NCBI GenBank assembly: GCA_021154885.1
Contig: JAJKHS010000159.1
Span: 1-64,000 of the forward strand
Source: Thermoanaerobaculum sp.
GTDB lineage: Bacteria; Acidobacteriota; Thermoanaerobaculia; Multivoradales; UBA5704
Length of the DNA stretch: 64,000 nt
Reading direction: 5' to 3'
Positions 6,595 to 63,150 of the stretch are shown piece by piece. The first letter of the stretch is position 1, and each line of letters begins with the position of its first letter. The notes beneath the pieces are model-generated. The model had not been told where the DNA came from, did not search any database, and worked only from the letters and a program-made list of their open reading frames with translations. A program made the translations under genes and the position numbers.

Positions 6595-8991
6595 TCATTC
6601 CTCCCGCAAAGCCACCATGGGATCGACAACAGCAGCCCGCCGGGCGGGGATGAAGCAAGCCGCGAGCGCTACCGCCGTCAGGATCGCTGCTACCACCAAG
6701 TAGATCTTCGGATCGCGCACTCCAACGCCATACACGAGGCTCTCCACCGTGCGGCCCAAGGCGAGTCCGCCGGCCAATCCGATCACCAGGCCCAGCAGCA
6801 CGATGCGCATGCCCTCCGAGACGATCAATCCCTGGACGCGGCGCGGCGTTGCGCCCAGTGCCATGCGGAGGCCGATCTCGCGCGTACGCTGGCTGACGGA
6901 GTAGGCGAGCACGGCATAGATCCCGATCGCAGCGATGAGCAGCGCGACCCCGGCAAAGGTGCCGAGCAGGATGCTGGTCAGCCGCGGCTGCGCGGCGCTG
7001 GTCGTGAGCCATTGCTCCATGGTCTTCACGTTGGCCATCGGCAGGTCAGGGTCGAGCGCTTTGATCTGCTTGCGGATGGCGGGCAGCAGTGATTCCGGAG
7101 ACGCGTCGGTCCGCACCACGACGTCCATCAACGGCATGGTCCGCGTGGTGATGGAGTAGTAGAAGGCAGGTGACTCCTGACTCAGTTGGGTGCTGCGCAC
7201 GTCACCGACCACGCCGACCACGGTGAAGGGAGTTTGGGGGTCGGCCGAGCGGCGAAGGGTGCGTCCGAGAGGATTTTTGTCTCCCCAGAAGGTGCGGGCG
7301 GTGGCCTGGCTCACGATGATGATGTTGGGCGTGCTCGCGTCGGAGTACTCGAACTCGCGGCCCAGCAGCAACGGGATGTGCATGGTCTTGAAGTATCCGG
7401 GGTTCACGATGCGCCAATCGACGGGGACTTTGGCGTCGGGCGGAAGGATGGAGTTTTCGGTCGCCATCATCGGGTGGCTGTACAACGCGCCCGCGCCAAA
7501 CGGGATGCCGCTCGAGACCGACGCACTGCGCGCGCCCGGCAGCGCTGCCAATGATTCGATCATCTCGCGGAAGAACAAGGGCGCCCTAGTCTTGGCGGGA
7601 TACTTGCCCGGAGGAAGCGACACTTGAAAAGTGATCAGGCCGTGCGGTTCGAAGCCGAGCTTCACACGCTGCAGATTGACCAGGGTCTGGATGAACAGGC
7701 CCGCTCCGATCAGCAGCACCGTCGCAAGAGCCAGCTCGATCGCCACCAGGGTGTTGCGCATGCGCGTGCGAATGCCGCCGGAGCCGGCGCGTCCACCGGT
7801 CTTGAGCACTTCATCGACCTTCACCTTCGCCGTACGCAGGGCAGGCACGATGCCGAAGATGAGCCCGGTCAGCACCGTAGTCCCCAGCGCGAACAACAGA
7901 ACACGGGAATCCACTTCGATCGTGGGGATGGGCAGCGTGTTCGGCGGGAGCCACTGATTCATGGCGCGTACCGACCACCAGGTCGCCAGCAGTCCGGCAA
8001 GACCTCCGCCGCAGGAGAGCGTCACGCTTTCTATCAGGAGTTGGCGCACCAGCCGGCCCTGGCTGGCACCCAACGCCGTGCGCACCGCCATCTCGTGTTG
8101 CCGGGCCGCGGTCCTCGCCAGCAGAAGATTGGCGATGTTGGCGCAGGCGATGAGCAGCACGAAGCTGACGGCGGCCAGCAGCACCAGCAATTCGGTCTTG
8201 AGCTGCGGGTTGACGAACCCATCGAGCATGCTGATCGGATTCACGCCCCAATCGCGCAGCTCCGGATATTGCTGCTTCATTCCGTCGTAGATGGTGTTCA
8301 TCTCCGCCTTCGCCTGCTGGCTGGAAACGCCGGGCTTGAGCCTTCCGACGACAACGAGGGCGTGGCTCAGGCGCAGCTCCTTGGCAGGGTCGATGGTCAA
8401 CGGGGTGTAGATGTCTCCGGGCTCCAGGAGGTCCAGAGTGGCAGGGGCGATGCCGACGATGGTGGTGGCGTTGCCGTCGAGCTCGATGGTGCGGCCCAGG
8501 GCGTTGGCGTCCTTGCCGAAGTGGCGTCGCCAGAACGCCTCTCCGAGGATGGCGACCCGTGCCGCGCCGGGTTTCTCCTCCTCGGGGGTGAACGGCCTTC
8601 CCGCGATCAGAGGGACCCCGAGAACGCGCGGCAGCTCCGGGCTGATGCGGTTGCCGGTGAGCTGCTCGGGGTCACCCATTCCGGTGAGGATGTAGTTGTT
8701 GGGACTGACCGCGCCGAGGTCGAAGCTTTTCGTCTGGGCCCGCCAGTCGAGAAAATTCAGTACCGAGACGTTGTAGATCGGCGCGTTCAGCTTGTCGTTC
8801 TTCTCGAAGACAAACAGCAGCCGGTCCGGATCTTTGAAGGGCAGCGGCCGCAACATCTGGGCATTCACCACGCTGAAGATGGTGGCGGTGGCGGCGATGG
8901 CCAGGCCAATGGTCAGCACCACGGCTGCGGTGAAGAGCGGGGCCTTGCGCATGAGCCGCAAGGAATACGCAACATCCTGGGTGATCGACAT
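6595..8991 (-). CDS. Duplicated FtsX/MacB-type ABC permease without ATPase (ADOP type)
   Basis: A 798-residue protein containing two copies of the MacB periplasmic domain plus FtsX permease unit. An N-terminal helix (residues about 18-40) is followed by a large periplasmic domain, three helices in the middle, a second helix-periplasmic-three-helix unit, and the C-terminal signature REIGLRMALGATPRRV...DPMVALREE. This layout and length match the acidobacterial duplicated orphan permeases. The start was taken at MSITQDVAYSLRL because GGAGG lies 5 bp upstream; in-frame starts at 9003 and 9051 are less likely. No ABC ATPase or adaptor is adjacent, so its partner must be encoded elsewhere, or it acts alone. 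The insertion sequence lies about 110 bp upstream of the start and may separate the gene from its original promoter. Confidence 0.9.
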   Translation of the reverse strand: MSITQDVAYSLRLMRKAPLFTAAVVLTIGLAIAATATIFSVVNAQMLRPLPFKDPDRLLFVFEKNDKLNAPIYNVSVLNFLDWRAQTKSFDLGAVSPNNYILTGMGDPEQLTGNRISPELPRVLGVPLIAGRPFTPEEEKPGAARVAILGEAFWRRHFGKDANALGRTIELDGNATTIVGIAPATLDLLEPGDIYTPLTIDPAKELRLSHALVVVGRLKPGVSSQQAKAEMNTIYDGMKQQYPELRDWGVNPISMLDGFVNPQLKTELLVLLAAVSFVLLIACANIANLLLARTAARQHEMAVRTALGASQGRLVRQLLIESVTLSCGGGLAGLLATWWSVRAMNQWLPPNTLPIPTIEVDSRVLLFALGTTVLTGLIFGIVPALRTAKVKVDEVLKTGGRAGSGGIRTRMRNTLVAIELALATVLLIGAGLFIQTLVNLQRVKLGFEPHGLITFQVSLPPGKYPAKTRAPLFFREMIESLAALPGARSASVSSGIPFGAGALYSHPMMATENSILPPDAKVPVDWRIVNPGYFKTMHIPLLLGREFEYSDASTPNIIIVSQATARTFWGDKNPLGRTLRRSADPQTPFTVVGVVGDVRSTQLSQESPAFYYSITTRTMPLMDVVVRTDASPESLLPAIRKQIKALDPDLPMANVKTMEQWLTTSAAQPRLTSILLGTFAGVALLIAAIGIYAVLAYSVSQRTREIGLRMALGATPRRVQGLIVSEGMRIVLLGLVIGLAGGLALGRTVESLVYGVGVRDPKIYLVVAAILTAVALAACFIPARRAAVVDPMVALREE

Positions 8992-12150: not shown

Positions 12151-12231
12151 ATAGGTCGGCCCGAATTCTGGTAACCCCTGAGAGGCGGGAAGCCAGCTCC
12201 GCCCACCGTCAAGGCTCTCGCTTCATAGGAC

Positions 12232-12378
12232 ATGCCCAGTCTTAAATCGGGCATGCCCGATGCTCCATCTGCCATGCCCGATGGTCCGCCTGCCAGGTCC
12301 GGTATTCCACCTGTCACGGCATGCCGGCCGCCTGCCGCGTCCGGCACGACGTTGGACACATCCGGCAAGACACAAGAC
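12232..12378. repeat. Degenerate 21-bp tandem array A (7 units)
   Basis: Units begin at 12232, 12253, 12274, 12295, 12316, 12337 and 12358, all exactly 21 bp apart. The first three begin ATGCCC; the shared core drifts toward TCCGG in later units, and many units end GCC or GAC. The array fills the gap between the truncated propeller gene and the methylase gene. The minus-strand frame is open through it and gives short Gly/Pro/Asp-rich heptads, but no start or signal supports a protein. Confidence 0.75.
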
Positions 12379-12424
12379 CTCTTCGACTCTTGATACAGAG
12401 GGGCGCGCAACTCCGGCGCCGGGT

Positions 12425-14764
12425 CTAATCCAGCAGAGATCCCTGGGCGCCGTCGTCTTTCGCCTTGCGTCCGCGCTTCGTCGCAGCCTTGACCGGCTTC
12501 GCAGTGATCTGCCGCTTCTCCTCTTCGGCCCTCTGGGCGTTGAGAACGAAGAGGCGGTCGATCACCTCGTCCTCGAAGGCTTCGAGAGCGCGGCGCTCGG
12601 CGTCCGTGGCCGGGGTGCCGTACGGGGGGACCGGAATGTCGTCCCACCCATAGGCGGCGAGCACGGCGCGGTCCATCTCCTCGTGCAGCCGCCGCAGCTC
12701 CTCAATGCGTGGATCGTGGCAGTCGGGGTCCTTGAGGAGGTTGTAGGTGGTGGTCAGGCCCTGCTGGGTGTCCAGCATGAACGGCGGATTTCCCACAAAC
12801 GCATCCATCCAAGCCGACCCGTTCGGCCGACCTCCATCTAGAGGGTCCGGCCGCTCCGCGTAAAACACCTCCGGAAACTCAATCATCCAATGAAACACCG
12901 GAATCCGTTCCCGGATCTCGTTCTGCATAACGATCAGCTCGGTTGGAATCTCCCGACCTCCAGCCTTCAGCCACTCGGTGACTAACTGCAACCGACGCCC
13001 GAGCTCCTTCTGTCGCTCGCGATCGTTCTCGGCCGAGAAGAAGGCGCCGACGATCAGGTCCGCGATGAGGCGGACGCGAAGAAGAGCGTCCTCCGCGTCG
13101 TGGAGTAGCCACTCTTTCTCCCGCTGGGCCCACGGGGACGGGTCCGCCGCCAGCTCCTGAATCTTGCGGCGCTCGACGATCGCATCCTCCAGGGCCACGG
13201 TCAGCTCGTCCGTCGCGAAATCGATCTGCGCGGTCGGCTGCCAGTGGAACCCTTGAATCTGCTCGAAGGTCAGGCCGACCAGCGAATCTCCCCAGCGCAG
13301 CGCGTGATCGAGAAAGGTGAACGGAAGATCGCGGGCCATCGTCTCCAGCCAGAGCGAGAGCTTGGCAAGACCGACCGCCAGACGGTTCTTGTCCACGCCG
13401 TAGAGACACGTCTGGGCCACCAGACGGCGGGCGTGGAGGTTCACGTCCTCGTGAGGCGAGGCCACCAGCTCGGCACGGCCCTCGCGAGTCCACGCGGCCA
13501 CGAGCTGATCGGCGAGAAAGCGGCAGGCTTCCACCAGGAACGCCCCGGACCCCATGGCGGGATCGCAGACGCGCAACGAGAGGATCAGCTCGGACGGCGG
13601 CTCGGGACCCATCGCCGCCAGAAGGGGCTCCAGCGTGCGGCGGACGATGGGCGCCGTGAGGCTCTTCGGCGTGTAGTGGCTGCTCGTGCGGCGGCGCTCC
13701 TCGCCGGGCTGGATGACGAGCTGGTTCGGACGCGCCCGCGTGGTGTTTTTCACCCGCACCGTCTCCAGGGCCGCGAGCACCTCCTCCGGATTCGCAGCGG
13801 CCTGCACGGCGGCGGCGAGCTTCTCGGCCTGGGCCTTCGCCAGGCCGGTCGCCTCCTGAAGCCACTTGGCGCGGCGCGAGGCCGGCGGCTCGAGCACCTC
13901 CTCGGCGGTCAGCCAGACGCGGTCCGGACGCACGCAGACGGCCGGATGGTAGACGCGTAGCACGTGGTAGCCCATGAGGCGCTCGTAGACGCTGCCGATC
14001 TGCTCGACGTCGAGGGAGCTGTAGGAGAGGCGCTGGCCGCCGAGAAAGACGAGCTTGCGGAGGACTTCGAAGATCGTGCCGTCGTCGACCGAGGGGACGC
14101 GCACCGCGGCGCGGCGCACGTCGTCAACCGGAGCGCTGCTGCCGGAAGACCAGCCTTCGAGAAAGGAGTAGGCGTCGGGATCGAAAAGCTCGCCGCGCCG
14201 CGGCGGCAGATGCAGATCGCCATGATGGACGCCGCCATAGACGGCGCGAAACAGGGCGAGCAGGCGATCCCAGGAGCCGAAGCGGCGGGCCATGGAGTCG
14301 GGATGTTGCCCGGCGTCGTCCTGGAGCTGCCCGAAGAGGCCGAAGACGCTCAGATGCCCCTGATAGAGAGGATGCTCGACGGGAAGCAGCCCCTTGTCCT
14401 CGGCATAGAGCAGGACGACCAGGTGGAGGAGAACGGTGAGAAGGCCGCCATAGAGATGGTCGTCCTCGACGCGGGAGGCTTCGTTGAGGAGATTGGAGCC
14501 ATCGCGCTCGGCGGCGGCCTCGAAGCCATGCAGAAGGATGTCGAGAGCCTGAAAGACCTGCTCGGCCAGCTCGTTGGTGACGTTGGCCTGGCGCCGGCGG
14601 CTGTCCGCCAGAAGAGCCGGGAACTGGTGCTCGCGGGCGACCGAGAAGAACCGCCGCACGGAGAGGAGCATGACGAACGCATCGAGAAGGGGCCGGCCCG
14701 CCGACCGAGGCCATGTCGTTGAGGCGGAACGTGAGGGAGCCGCTCGATTCGCCATGAGGCGCAT
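12425..14764 (-). CDS. Adenine-specific DNA methylase (Eco57I/DrmMI-like), internally deleted and frameshifted
   Basis: The central region carries N6-adenine methylase motifs: SSHYTPKSLTAPIVRRTL, then DPAMGSGAFLVEACR (motif I, SAM binding), and VGNPPFM (motif IV, catalytic NPPF). The N-terminal part (RPLLDAFVMLLSVRRFF) matches the family, but its true beginning continues in another frame, in the upstream fragment. Directly after NPPF the sequence jumps to a C-terminal end (EELRRLHEEMDRAVLAAYGW), so the several hundred residues normally lying between, including the target-recognition region, are missing. The neighbouring DrmD-like fragment suggests DISARM DrmMI. The start shown (14764) is only where the frame opens. 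Activity is doubtful. Confidence 0.8.
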   Translation of the reverse strand: MRLMANRAAPSRSASTTWPRSAGRPLLDAFVMLLSVRRFFSVAREHQFPALLADSRRRQANVTNELAEQVFQALDILLHGFEAAAERDGSNLLNEASRVEDDHLYGGLLTVLLHLVVLLYAEDKGLLPVEHPLYQGHLSVFGLFGQLQDDAGQHPDSMARRFGSWDRLLALFRAVYGGVHHGDLHLPPRRGELFDPDAYSFLEGWSSGSSAPVDDVRRAAVRVPSVDDGTIFEVLRKLVFLGGQRLSYSSLDVEQIGSVYERLMGYHVLRVYHPAVCVRPDRVWLTAEEVLEPPASRRAKWLQEATGLAKAQAEKLAAAVQAAANPEEVLAALETVRVKNTTRARPNQLVIQPGEERRRTSSHYTPKSLTAPIVRRTLEPLLAAMGPEPPSELILSLRVCDPAMGSGAFLVEACRFLADQLVAAWTREGRAELVASPHEDVNLHARRLVAQTCLYGVDKNRLAVGLAKLSLWLETMARDLPFTFLDHALRWGDSLVGLTFEQIQGFHWQPTAQIDFATDELTVALEDAIVERRKIQELAADPSPWAQREKEWLLHDAEDALLRVRLIADLIVGAFFSAENDRERQKELGRRLQLVTEWLKAGGREIPTELIVMQNEIRERIPVFHWMIEFPEVFYAERPDPLDGGRPNGSAWMDAFVGNPPFMLDTQQGLTTTYNLLKDPDCHDPRIEELRRLHEEMDRAVLAAYGWDDIPVPPYGTPATDAERRALEAFEDEVIDRLFVLNAQRAEEEKRQITAKPVKAATKRGRKAKDDGAQGSLLD

Positions 14765-15278
14765 AGATCAGCCGCACCTCGCGGCGGTTGGTCAGCAACC
14801 CGATGGGGACGCGGACATGGCGCAGCAGGCGGTCGAACTTGGCGGCCGGAGGATAGTCCCAAAGGCCGGTGTCGGTTTCGGCCTTATCAGCCTGCTGCAC
14901 AAATCCTCTCTCTGGCCACGCCGCGGCGAACGCGCGCATGTACTTGAGATTGCGCGGCGAGAAGCCCTTCATGTCGGGGAATGCCTCGCGCAGATCCGCG
15001 GCCAGCCGGTCAATCACCTTGGCCCCCCACCCCTCGTGCACCTGCCGCTCCAGGATCATCTGGCCAATATCCCAGTAGAGCGAAATCATCGCTGCGTTGG
15101 CGGCAAGAATGACCCGCAGGCGTTCTTCCTGGATGCGTTGCTTGATAGCGCCGAGAGCGTCCGCATACTCCTTCGGCAGGCTTGCCTTCGCGGGGGTCGC
15201 CGGAAAGCGAGCCTCCTCCGACTCTTGGCCCCGGGAGAGCCGGTTCTCCAGTTCGTCGCGCTGACGCTTACGAGCCAT
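14704..15278 (-). pseudogene. DUF1016 (YhcG-type) N-terminus fused to the start of the methylase
   Basis: ATG 15278 has GGAG 8 bp upstream. Residues 1 to about 130 look like a DUF1016 N-terminal domain (GWGAKVIDRLAADLR, FPDMKGFSPRNLKYMRAF). After FVQQA the sequence switches to a methylase N-terminus (TDTGLWDYPP, then VPIGLLTNRREVRLIYAPHG) that belongs with the next gene. Around 14692-14703 one extra C appears to shift the frame: the same strand continues as GRPLLDAF in the other frame. The original frame runs on as nonsense to 14124. The DUF1016 3' half and the methylase 5' end have thus been lost in one junction. If the extra C is a sequencing error, the pair would be one chimeric protein of about 950 residues. 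Confidence 0.7.
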
Positions 15279-15392: not shown

Positions 15393-16481
15393 CTACCCCC
15401 GCACCGCCGGCCACAGGTACACCATGCCCACCGGCTCGCGCCGGGTGAGCACGACGCGGTAGAGATCCTGGATGGCCGCCGGCTCGGTTTCGATCTCACG
15501 GTCGATATCGATCAGGCGGCCTTCCATGTAGTCGCGGTCCTGCTCGATCTGGCGGATCTGCTCTCGGGCCTTGGGTGCAGTGGGGGAGAAGGCCAGGGTG
15601 AGCTGCGGCAGCTTGCCGATGGCCTTCTGGATGGCGCTGCGCTGGTTGCGGAGAATCCCCCGCAGAGCTTCCGACTCGGTGGCGCCTCGCTCGGCCAGCT
15701 TGCGCTCGGCCTCGTGGGCGAGGGCCTCGGCTTCGGCCTCTACGTGCGGCCAGAGAGCGGCGAAATCTTTCGGGGCCGAGGCGTGGAGGTCGTGCGCGCC
15801 GTAGCCCTGGGCCAGGAAGCGCGAAAGCAGGCGCTGGACGAAGGGATGTTGGAGGTGCAGATGCACCCGCGAGCCGTCCAGGCGGTCCATGGCCTCGAAG
15901 ACCACGGGCAGGAGCGGGCGCTTGCGCCAATCCCAGAAGGGCTCCTCTTTCCCTCGCGGCGGGCGCAAGGTGTCGAGCGTGCCCTGCCAGGACTCGGGTA
16001 GATCGGGAAGGAGATAGGCGGCGGGAGCGTTTCCGCGATCCCCGGCCAGCGGTTTCAGGGGATCTGCTCCGGCGAGGACGAGCGCGGCGTCCACGGTCTC
16101 CCGCAAAAGGCCGGGATCGAACTCCAAGGCCTTGCGGGAGCGGTCGAGAATTCCGCCGGCTTCGTCGATCTCCCTTTTGAGCTTCTGAATGTCGGAGCGC
16201 TCCGACTCCAGCTCTTCGCGGACGATTTCGCGCCGGCCGCCGATCTGGCTGGCTTCTTCGAGCTCGGCCTCCGAGGTTGGGGCGATCCCCCGGTCGAGAA
16301 TCTCCGTGTAGCGCTCCATGAACACGGCGGAGAGCGACCCCGGCTCCTTCTGGATGGTTTGCACCTTGCGGACGACCACATCCAGAACCCGGTCCTCCTC
16401 CCGCTGTTGATAGAAGAAGTACACCCACACGCTGACCAATTCGGGCAAGAGCCCGGCGCGGCTGGTGACGGTGGAATTCAA
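15393..16481 (-). CDS. C-terminal fragment of a DrmD-like SNF2 helicase (DISARM)
   Basis: A 362-residue frame starting at a TTG with no RBS. It begins where helicase-C sequences end (FFYQQREEDRVLDVVVRKVQT, then KEPGSLSAVFMERY). It contains HPFVQRLLSRFLAQGY and a coiled-coil tail (EALAHEAERKLAERG, RNQRSAIQKAIGK), and finishes with EPVGMVYLWP, an ending I associate with the DISARM helicase DrmD. No Walker A, DEAH or helicase core is present, so all of the ATPase is missing. The sequence between FLAQGYGAHDL and APKDFAALWPHV also looks shortened. It lies upstream of the methylase on the same strand, as drmD does relative to drmMI in class 1 DISARM. The family assignment is from memory and needs a profile search. 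Confidence 0.6.
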   Translation of the reverse strand: MNSTVTSRAGLLPELVSVWVYFFYQQREEDRVLDVVVRKVQTIQKEPGSLSAVFMERYTEILDRGIAPTSEAELEEASQIGGRREIVREELESERSDIQKLKREIDEAGGILDRSRKALEFDPGLLRETVDAALVLAGADPLKPLAGDRGNAPAAYLLPDLPESWQGTLDTLRPPRGKEEPFWDWRKRPLLPVVFEAMDRLDGSRVHLHLQHPFVQRLLSRFLAQGYGAHDLHASAPKDFAALWPHVEAEAEALAHEAERKLAERGATESEALRGILRNQRSAIQKAIGKLPQLTLAFSPTAPKAREQIRQIEQDRDYMEGRLIDIDREIETEPAAIQDLYRVVLTRREPVGMVYLWPAVRG

Positions 16482-16614
16482 GCCGGGCGACGCGCAGCCC
16501 TAGCCCAACTTCGGCGGTTTTTCTGAGGAATCCTCGGGATTTTGGCGGAGGTTTTCGTCACTATCCCTGGGGGTCCCCCTTGCCGCGCTCGAGTCGCGTG
16601 GCGGCGGTCCCGCG

Positions 16615-16887
16615 AGTCAGGTCCTCTGCAACTCGGATGAGATCTCTCAATCCGCGGATGAGATGACCTGCAATTCGGATGAGGACCCTCAATCCGCGGA
16701 TGAGGTCACTTGAAACCCGGATGAGGTGATCCGCAACCCGGATGAGATGACCTGCAATTCGGATGAGGTCCTCTGCAACTCGAATGAGATCCCTCACTCC
16801 GCGGATGAGATCGCCTGGAGCTCGAATGAGGTCATCCGCAACTCGGATGAGGTCATCGGAAACCCGAATGAGATGACTACCGACGAG
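16615..16887. repeat. Strict 21-bp tandem array B (13 units, GATGAG core)
   Basis: Twelve cores at 16636, 16657, 16678, 16699, 16720, 16741, 16762, 16783, 16804, 16825, 16846 and 16867 are spaced exactly 21 bp. Each is GATGAG or AATGAG, and a degenerate first unit starts at 16615. The remaining 15 bp vary, although two units (16657 and 16741) are identical, as are the variable parts at 16621 and 16768. Most units end in CG. The array fills most of the 430-bp gap from 16482 to 16911 and ends 24 bp before the acetamidase start. The minus-strand frame is open through all units and encodes a seven-residue repeat (R-x-x-x-D-L-I); the plus-strand frame contains a TGA. Confidence 0.9.
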
Positions 16888-16911
16888 TCCCTTGTGGTAG
16901 CGTGCGTCGCC

Positions 16912-62439: not shown

Positions 62440-63150
62440 CCGCCAGATATTGCGGCGTCGCCCATGACTCTGCGGCAGCTCCAGCAAAGTTGCGGTAAAG
62501 GTAGAAGACGACGGTATGGCGCGACGGACCGTGCCGCAACTTGCCCCCGACACATTTTGGAGGAGTTGACGTTGCAGCGGAGTCTGTAGACTCCAGACCG
62601 GCGGCGCTCAAGAATGCCGCGGTGTCGAGCCGGCCGGGGCGGATCTCCAGAAATTTTGCGGCATTTGTTATGAATCGTACCGCAGCGTCGTATAGAACTG
62701 CGGTGGAGAAATCTGCGTCGCGGTGGATGTCGATAAACGCGGATACGGTTCGGCGGCGTTGCGGCGATGTTTGGAGAGGTTGCGGTGTGTATCCCGGAGT
62801 GGCGGCGAAATCGTCTTGCGTCGCGGCAACGTTCCCTTGCGATGCAGCGAAGCCGCAGAATATGCGGCAATGTTTGTCTGTGCTGCGATAAAATCCGGCA
62901 CGCTCTTTGGGTGTTGGAGCGCACTCTGGGATCTCTGGCAAGTGTTGCGGTAAATTTCGAGGAGTCGCCGGAACATAATTCTATTCTGCGGTGGGGTCGG
63001 TAGACGCACTGCAACGCCTGAAGACGTTGCGGCGTGTCTGTAGGCCCTGCGGTGTGTCTGGGAGCGTTGCGGCGGATGCGGAGAGGTTGCGGCGAAGTCT
63101 TTCGGCTTCGAACCGCGTCGGGCCAAGTTGCGGCGATGTCAGGCGAGTTA
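62440..63150. repeat. Long degenerate 20-21-bp array C (about 34 units, TGCGG core)
   Basis: This fills most of the 870-bp gene-free gap between the antitoxin and the barrel protein. Cores reading TGCGG, CGCGG, GGCGG or TGCAG recur at 62451, 62471, 62491, 62638, 62657, 62699, 62719, 62738, 62760, 62781, 62801, 62822, 62843, 62863, 62884, 62946, 62987, 63028, 63048, 63068, 63088 and 63129. The steps are mostly 20 or 21 bp, with single missing beats giving 41 or 62. The remaining bases of each unit differ. Because the step mixes 20 and 21, no reading frame is kept, so a protein product is unlikely. Confidence 0.8.

Follow-up and report, generated by a model that had tools for sequence, protein, structure and literature searches.

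A worn 21-bp repeat array beside an amidase gene in Thermoanaerobaculum sp. is probably a member of a dispersed satellite-like repeat class

The window considered here is a stretch of 64,000 nucleotides from Thermoanaerobaculum sp., lying on contig C159 of a host genome assembly (G000) of 8.2 Mb in 161 contigs. Between an ORF on the minus strand and a gene for an acetamidase/formamidase family protein it carries a tandem array of a short RATGAG core, and the locus could be delineated as follows, together with two further arrays elsewhere in the window.

12170..12397, plus strand: second array of period 21, of a family unrelated to that of the amidase-side array (CATGCCCGATGCTCCACCTGC); it resembles the array that follows a family-A unit in L014 (C41:82268)
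15393..16481, minus strand: upstream divergent ORF of 362 aa without a Pfam match, neighbour of the window array
16581..16614, plus strand: left edge ('head') shared within family A, consisting of what is left of the final TPR-gene codons (..P-A-A-L-E, without the stop) and then a degenerate 21-bp unit; matches to other copies begin at query base 22-23, that is at 16581
16615..16635, plus strand: first unit, degenerate and in phase, with AGTCAG replacing the core 21 bp ahead of the first RATGAG
16636..16872, plus strand: array proper, in which the RATGAG core comes 12 times, always exactly 21 bp on, in a mosaic of unit subtypes (..CTGCAACTCGGATGAG, ..CTCAATCCGCGGATGAG and others)
16873..16911, plus strand: right boundary; nothing is left here of the distal segment (~190 bp, with TCAAGAGnCCTCTTGA and a promoter-like site) found in L004, L005 and L007
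16912..17955, plus strand: downstream acetamidase/formamidase family protein (PF03069, E = 9.4e-39) with a signal-peptide-like N terminus; start inferred by eye
62451..63134, plus strand: third, degenerate array with TTGCGGCG-like cores at a spacing of ~20-21 or 41 bp, with indels

The array beside the amidase gene is far above chance. Its RATGAG cores lie at 16636, 16657 and onwards to 16867, with all 11 steps equal to 21 bp, and the local autocorrelation reached z = 11.4 at lag 21 and z = 12.5 at lag 42, while outside the 12.2- and 16.6-kb arrays every lag in the window stayed at z <= 6.1. The pattern RATGAG-N15-RATGAG-N15-RATGAG gave 31 matches in the genome against 0 for the reversed control. 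An earlier sequence-only reading had proposed 13 units at an exact 21-bp step with an invariant (G/A)ATGAG core; the step stands, as do 12 of the units, but the thirteenth is the degenerate AGTCAG, and the core is not fully constant in the wider family (G16/A16; G19 replaced by C in 26 of 114 units). Its figure of 24 bp for the gap between the array, which it ended at 16887, and the amidase ATG holds. Of the two further gaps to which it had assigned the same period with unrelated cores, that at 12.17-12.40 kb bears it out (period 21, z 8.4-9.5); the array at 62.45-63.13 kb, with TGCGG cores, is real but looser, its score in the scan staying under z = 6. At 45.4-45.8 kb a lag-21 signal was discarded as an array, since it comes from a coding heptad repeat (by eye an HlyD-like coiled coil); it offers a contrast to the arrays. 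We also noted the remains of a restriction-modification locus at 12425-15278 with a minus-strand Eco57I/N6-methylase-like ORF, which is overlapped by a minus-strand frame at 14124-15278 resembling, by eye, a YhcG-type nuclease that is fused or frameshifted.

A search of the genome with the window array recovered the same family, family A, at about 11 further places, and the array is hence not confined to one locus. When oriented alike, the copies have a common left edge ending ACTCGCGAGTCAG or similar. In the copy on C120 (L009) the TPR gene that supplies this edge as its 3' end is still intact (397 aa, ...YFRRHWVKPAAFEQ-stop), and the array begins a few bases past the stop; the TPR 3' end then shortens progressively through L005, L002, L007, L003, L004 and the window as a nested truncation, other copies keeping ~85, 60, 40 or just 18 bp of it and the window ~18 bp. 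Three copies (on C36, C144 and C89) have in common the distal segment of ~190 bp, whose palindrome TCAAGAGnCCTCTTGA occurs at five places only in the genome when one mismatch is allowed, and in the C144 copy (L005) this segment holds a promoter-like TTGACA-18-GATTAT pointing into the array. The window copy is worn and truncated at both ends. The TPR protein family concerned has ~70 paralogs in the genome, many of them ending NPELRFE-like. A general association of arrays with TPR genes was rejected, given that an array lies directly downstream in 3 of the 30 paralogs fetched (C120, C154 and C55), which is near chance, and the TPR link is confined to family A, by way of its common edge. Searches for plasmid, phage or viral homologues of the array found none. 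Just past the family-A array on C75 (L003, about 1960-2180) we recognized by eye the C-terminal part of a tyrosine recombinase, integron-integrase-like, apparently cut where the array element ends.

Arrays of this kind are not restricted to family A. An autocorrelation scan of 854 kb of the genome (lags 5-60, window 105, z > 6) gave intergenic fundamental lags of 21 (16 arrays), 20 (3) and 42 (1), besides 9 (11) and 15 (1), and an order-2 Markov simulation of the same 854-kb set yielded no array. Since about 6 of the 20 arrays belonged to family A, which had guided the choice of contigs, we place the density at 14-20 per 854 kb, from which the total extrapolates to roughly 130-190 arrays per genome or one every 40-60 kb. 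The genome holds several families, with units unrelated between them: family B (CAGCAGTCGCTGCTGGGCCGG) occupies about 15 places in it, family C (CGTCGTATGGATACGACGG) four. The refined periods in the host genome are mostly 21.0 bp, but also 20.0, 20.33, 20.67 and 21.33 bp, some arrays drifting with indels. Relative to genes, as called by a home-made finder on which these positions rest, arrays favored convergent gaps (15 of 37 arrays, compared with 43 among 287 other gaps; p = 0.0005) and were scarcer in divergent ones (5 of 37 against 95 of 287, p = 0.014, with the window array moved by hand to the divergent class). A second intergenic class was seen on inspection among the eleven 9-bp repeats, in the form of inverted foldback arrays, (CAGGGACNN)n ... 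(GTCCCTGNN)n, at the following places in G000.

C144:237261-237561, 9-bp foldback array
C144:314948-315097, 9-bp foldback array
C143:5696-5837, 9-bp foldback array
C41:120085-120248, 9-bp foldback array

The period is found again in other genomes of the acidobacterial class Thermoanaerobaculia. A genome of the same family (G003) has five arrays of 21 or 42 bp in 168 kb, that is every ~34 kb, and one from a distant genus, of another family (G046), has 11-12 in 200 kb, every ~17 kb, most with a homogeneous middle and worn edges; in a congener of the latter (G047) the periods were 21, 21 and 21.67. By the same pipeline G014, G023, G058 and G137 gave one weak array or none at ~21 bp, and in G007, which belongs to a sister family within the window's own order, the periods were 15, 14 and 10 bp. 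Given ~21 bp in G003, G046 and G047, 14-15 bp in G007 and next to nothing in the other families, the period is lineage-specific. The autocorrelation of intergenic DNA in this genome and its relatives that the sequence-only reading had proposed thus came out in its favor, with ~21 bp recurring under other cores in the 854 kb here and in G003 and G046, and so did its argument for a common generating or binding mechanism, which is needed because the same period recurs with unrelated cores.

Arrays also come and go between congeners, as seen at two sites compared between G046 and G047 or G048, neither of which is the window array. At G046:C1:230261 the orthologous gap in G047 measures ~30 bp and has no array; at G046:C1:226881-227288 (L255, about 6881-7288) inverted heptamer arms enclose a 21-bp array in their loop, ~25 bp ahead of what reads as the gltX (glutamyl-tRNA synthetase) start, and the orthologues in both congeners have the 7-bp foldback repeat only. 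The foldback arrays of G046 and G047, equivalent to the 9-bp class of G000, have 7- or 8-bp units. Other observations from G046 include an array at C1:287347-287818 with a period of 42 made of two unrelated 21-bp halves (adjacent units 0.22 identical, alternate units 0.88), and short dispersed repeats at L255:8773-8868 and 16091-16145 with dozens of matches in G047 and G048, often on both strands, these repeats being palindromic. Clean 21-bp arrays in other phyla stood among the matches listed for a 21-bp-locked pattern, namely L055 2035-2250 (Nostoc sp. JL33, CCTTTTAGCCTCGACGATGAG) and L064 3996-4310 (Kuenenia, GAGGAGAGGCACCTGAATGAG), in a pan-bacterial set of listed matches that mixes coding and heptamer repeats.

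For the amidase gene the array is probably of no consequence. Control of this gene by the array, as the sequence-only reading had suggested, fits poorly with the rarity of arrays in divergent gaps and their frequency in convergent ones, with the many amidase-free sites of the family, and with the gap between array and gene, where a scan detected no promoter-like site. The assemblies of the congeners (G001 and G002) are fragmented: the amidase contig of G002 ends within the gene, and the homology of G001 to the window locus ends just beyond the amidase stop, so that neither provides an empty site for the window array.

Several features of the arrays point to their mode of growth. Units farther apart are less alike in 26 of 46 arrays, and L004, L006 and C41:82268 show block periods of 2, 4 and 5 units; decay with distance and block periods are together the mark of tandem duplication. 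In family A most columns vary among the 114 units collected genome-wide, with a unit divergence of ~36%, and 94 of 101 steps equal 21 bp, five equal 42 and two (30 and 41) are not multiples of 21. Similarity in this family does not decay with unit distance (r = -0.07, p = 0.31), and this flat profile along with the near-absence of off-21 steps would also fit selection on spacing. The reading we prefer, to which we assign a probability of about 0.6, is that the window array, itself worn, belongs to a class of dispersed, satellite-like repeats that do not code for protein, a class of several families, nearly all with ~21-bp units, that grow by duplication and turn over fast; this account has the best support. 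The arrays have grown in part through duplication in register, of single units as well as of 2-, 4- or 5-unit blocks, and family A was copied along with part of its original flank, consisting of the TPR 3' end and, in three copies, also the distal segment. The strict spacing would then be an outcome of in-register duplication and not of any need of the amidase, dispersal may have proceeded by segmental copying or some copying activity, and the arrays could be nearly neutral at their sites. No transposase or recombinase was found linked to the arrays.

Growth by duplication does not by itself account for the preference for ~21 bp. As unrelated sequences and non-codon lengths (20.0-21.7 bp) converge on this value, we suspect a physical ruler in the generating step, which might be helix phase, a DNA-binding or DNA-processing protein, or hairpin-assisted slippage. 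Two helical turns are the natural coincidence here; the non-codon lengths near 21 favor the helix, whereas the clade with 14-15 bp opposes a universal helical rule. A bolder formulation, which we offer only tentatively, is that a host activity with a fixed two-turn ruler makes and spreads ~21-bp arrays from arbitrary seeds, or that a structure-reading protein keeps their phase. If true, this would amount to a bacterial genome-wide satellite system in which the host sets the unit length but not the sequence.

Protein binding might hold the spacing in another way, by placing the core or dyad of each unit on one face of the DNA so that a nucleoid-type or family-specific protein coats the arrays to wrap, bridge or insulate, mostly at 3' ends. 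The period near two turns across unrelated families, untied to multiples of 3, the nearly indel-free condition of family A, and the convergent-gap bias, which would suit insulation or termination, are all in keeping with this, and dyad symmetry beat column permutations in 11 of 41 arrays at p < 0.05 (combined p = 8e-8, although the families are not independent), an excess that hints at a structural or binding role. However, the many unrelated sequences per genome exclude a single sequence-specific protein, and the arrays of family C, with indels, drift at 20.67 bp. Within the same order G007 has 14-15 bp instead, one genus can gain or lose arrays, and no binding protein came to light; we regard this explanation as rather unlikely. 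The strict helical phasing of the sequence-only reading is weakened: the period does lie near two turns, but some arrays drift over 20.0-21.3 bp with indels and the sister family departs from it altogether.

It is more doubtful that the arrays act as RNA, be it as strings of small 3'-end hairpins with a part in termination or transcript stability, or as promoter-driven repeat RNA in the complete copies. Both strands fold better than their dinucleotide shuffles (z = -3.85 for the minus and -2.37 for the plus strand), but repeats with partial dyads fold well by construction; the promoter-like site of L005 is directed into the array, but the window copy is without the promoter segment; and the convergent-gap bias, which would agree with a role at 3' ends, is set against a scan that found no terminator-like site and a search that found no Rfam match in the window. 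Covariation was weak (1 of 3 tested pairs in family B) and does not support a hairpin function.

The sequence-only reading had also raised the possibility that a heptad repeat, given there as R-x-x-x-D-L-I and here read as D-L-I-R-V-A-x, is encoded on the minus strand, its reading frame setting the spacing. Variable core columns of family A are indeed synonymous in the DLIRVAx frame, the relative N/S of which is ~0.56 as against 1.4-4.6 for frames with other third positions, stops occur in just 4 of the 114 units, and the window array shows a 3-bp periodicity at p = 0.04. Yet the +1 frame of the opposite strand, having the same third positions, scores 0.49 despite 32 stops, at least one family-A array (C143:50084) lacks any open frame, there is no conserved start or leader, L003 differing from L005 by a 2-bp indel ahead of the array, and the heptads lack a convincing match to a protein family or structure. 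Across the set of 41 arrays, variation was not significantly periodic at 3 bp (combined p = 0.09), stop-free frames are no commoner than in column-permuted arrays, and arrays of 20 and 20.3 bp exist. Heptad coding as the cause of the spacing is accordingly very improbable and in its strict form is rejected, with a weak codon-like signal remaining in family A only.

Bacterial genomes are thought to be poor in satellite-like DNA. Here is a clade in which a genome carries, by extrapolation, on the order of 100 dispersed arrays or more, with one unit length across unrelated sequences where sister families have another or none. It allows one to ask whether the length of bacterial repeats is set by an enzyme acting as a ruler or by selection on DNA phase, and it bears on annotation, through false heptad ORFs, as well as on assembly breaks in environmental genomes. 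The open-access papers searched hold no description of a class of ~21-bp arrays, and the dispersed class is apparently undescribed.

Among known systems, CRISPR arrays were rejected, in that the variable bases are recurring subtypes and not unique spacers and the unit is 21 bp. Plasmid iterons are tandem direct repeats with a spacing of about two helical turns. The present arrays differ from them in numbering >100 per genome (extrapolated) with unrelated sequences, and no replication initiator gene was seen beside the window copy, whose neighbours are the amidase and the 362-aa ORF. Minisatellites (VNTRs) are alike in being intergenic head-to-tail repeats, of 10-100 bp, with in-register tandem growth and with turnover between relatives, which we noted at the two sites above. 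VNTR units come in mixed lengths within one genome, whereas the present non-coding arrays, short foldback repeats aside, have hardly any period but 20-21 (or 42) bp. REP, BIME and REPIN elements (for REPINs, PMC3116915) are multicopy, short intergenic repeats that contain palindromes, and the host genome has Y1_Tnp/RAYT-like genes; however, the arrays described here are head-to-tail direct arrays of 10-30 units, with dyads in some of them. No clear link to RAYT emerged, the association not exceeding chance: Y1_Tnp has 12 matches in the genome, and an array lay within 1.5 kb at 2 of the 10 loci fetched against about 0.75 expected.

The nearest published relatives are the intergenic heptamer direct repeats of Cyanobacteria (STRR), of Beggiatoaceae, with TAACTGA (PMC4679880), and of Xanthomonas and Nostoc, with GGGNATC (PMC4692102). 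Like the ~21-bp arrays, these are dispersed, mostly intergenic and lineage-specific, and occupy many sites per genome. The GGGNATC repeats are moreover under-represented between divergent ORFs (PMC4692102), and the ~21-bp arrays are likewise rare there. The two differ in that heptamer repeats have a 7-bp unit with one sequence per lineage, while the units here are of ~21 bp, degenerate and of several unrelated families, which places them outside the STRRs proper.
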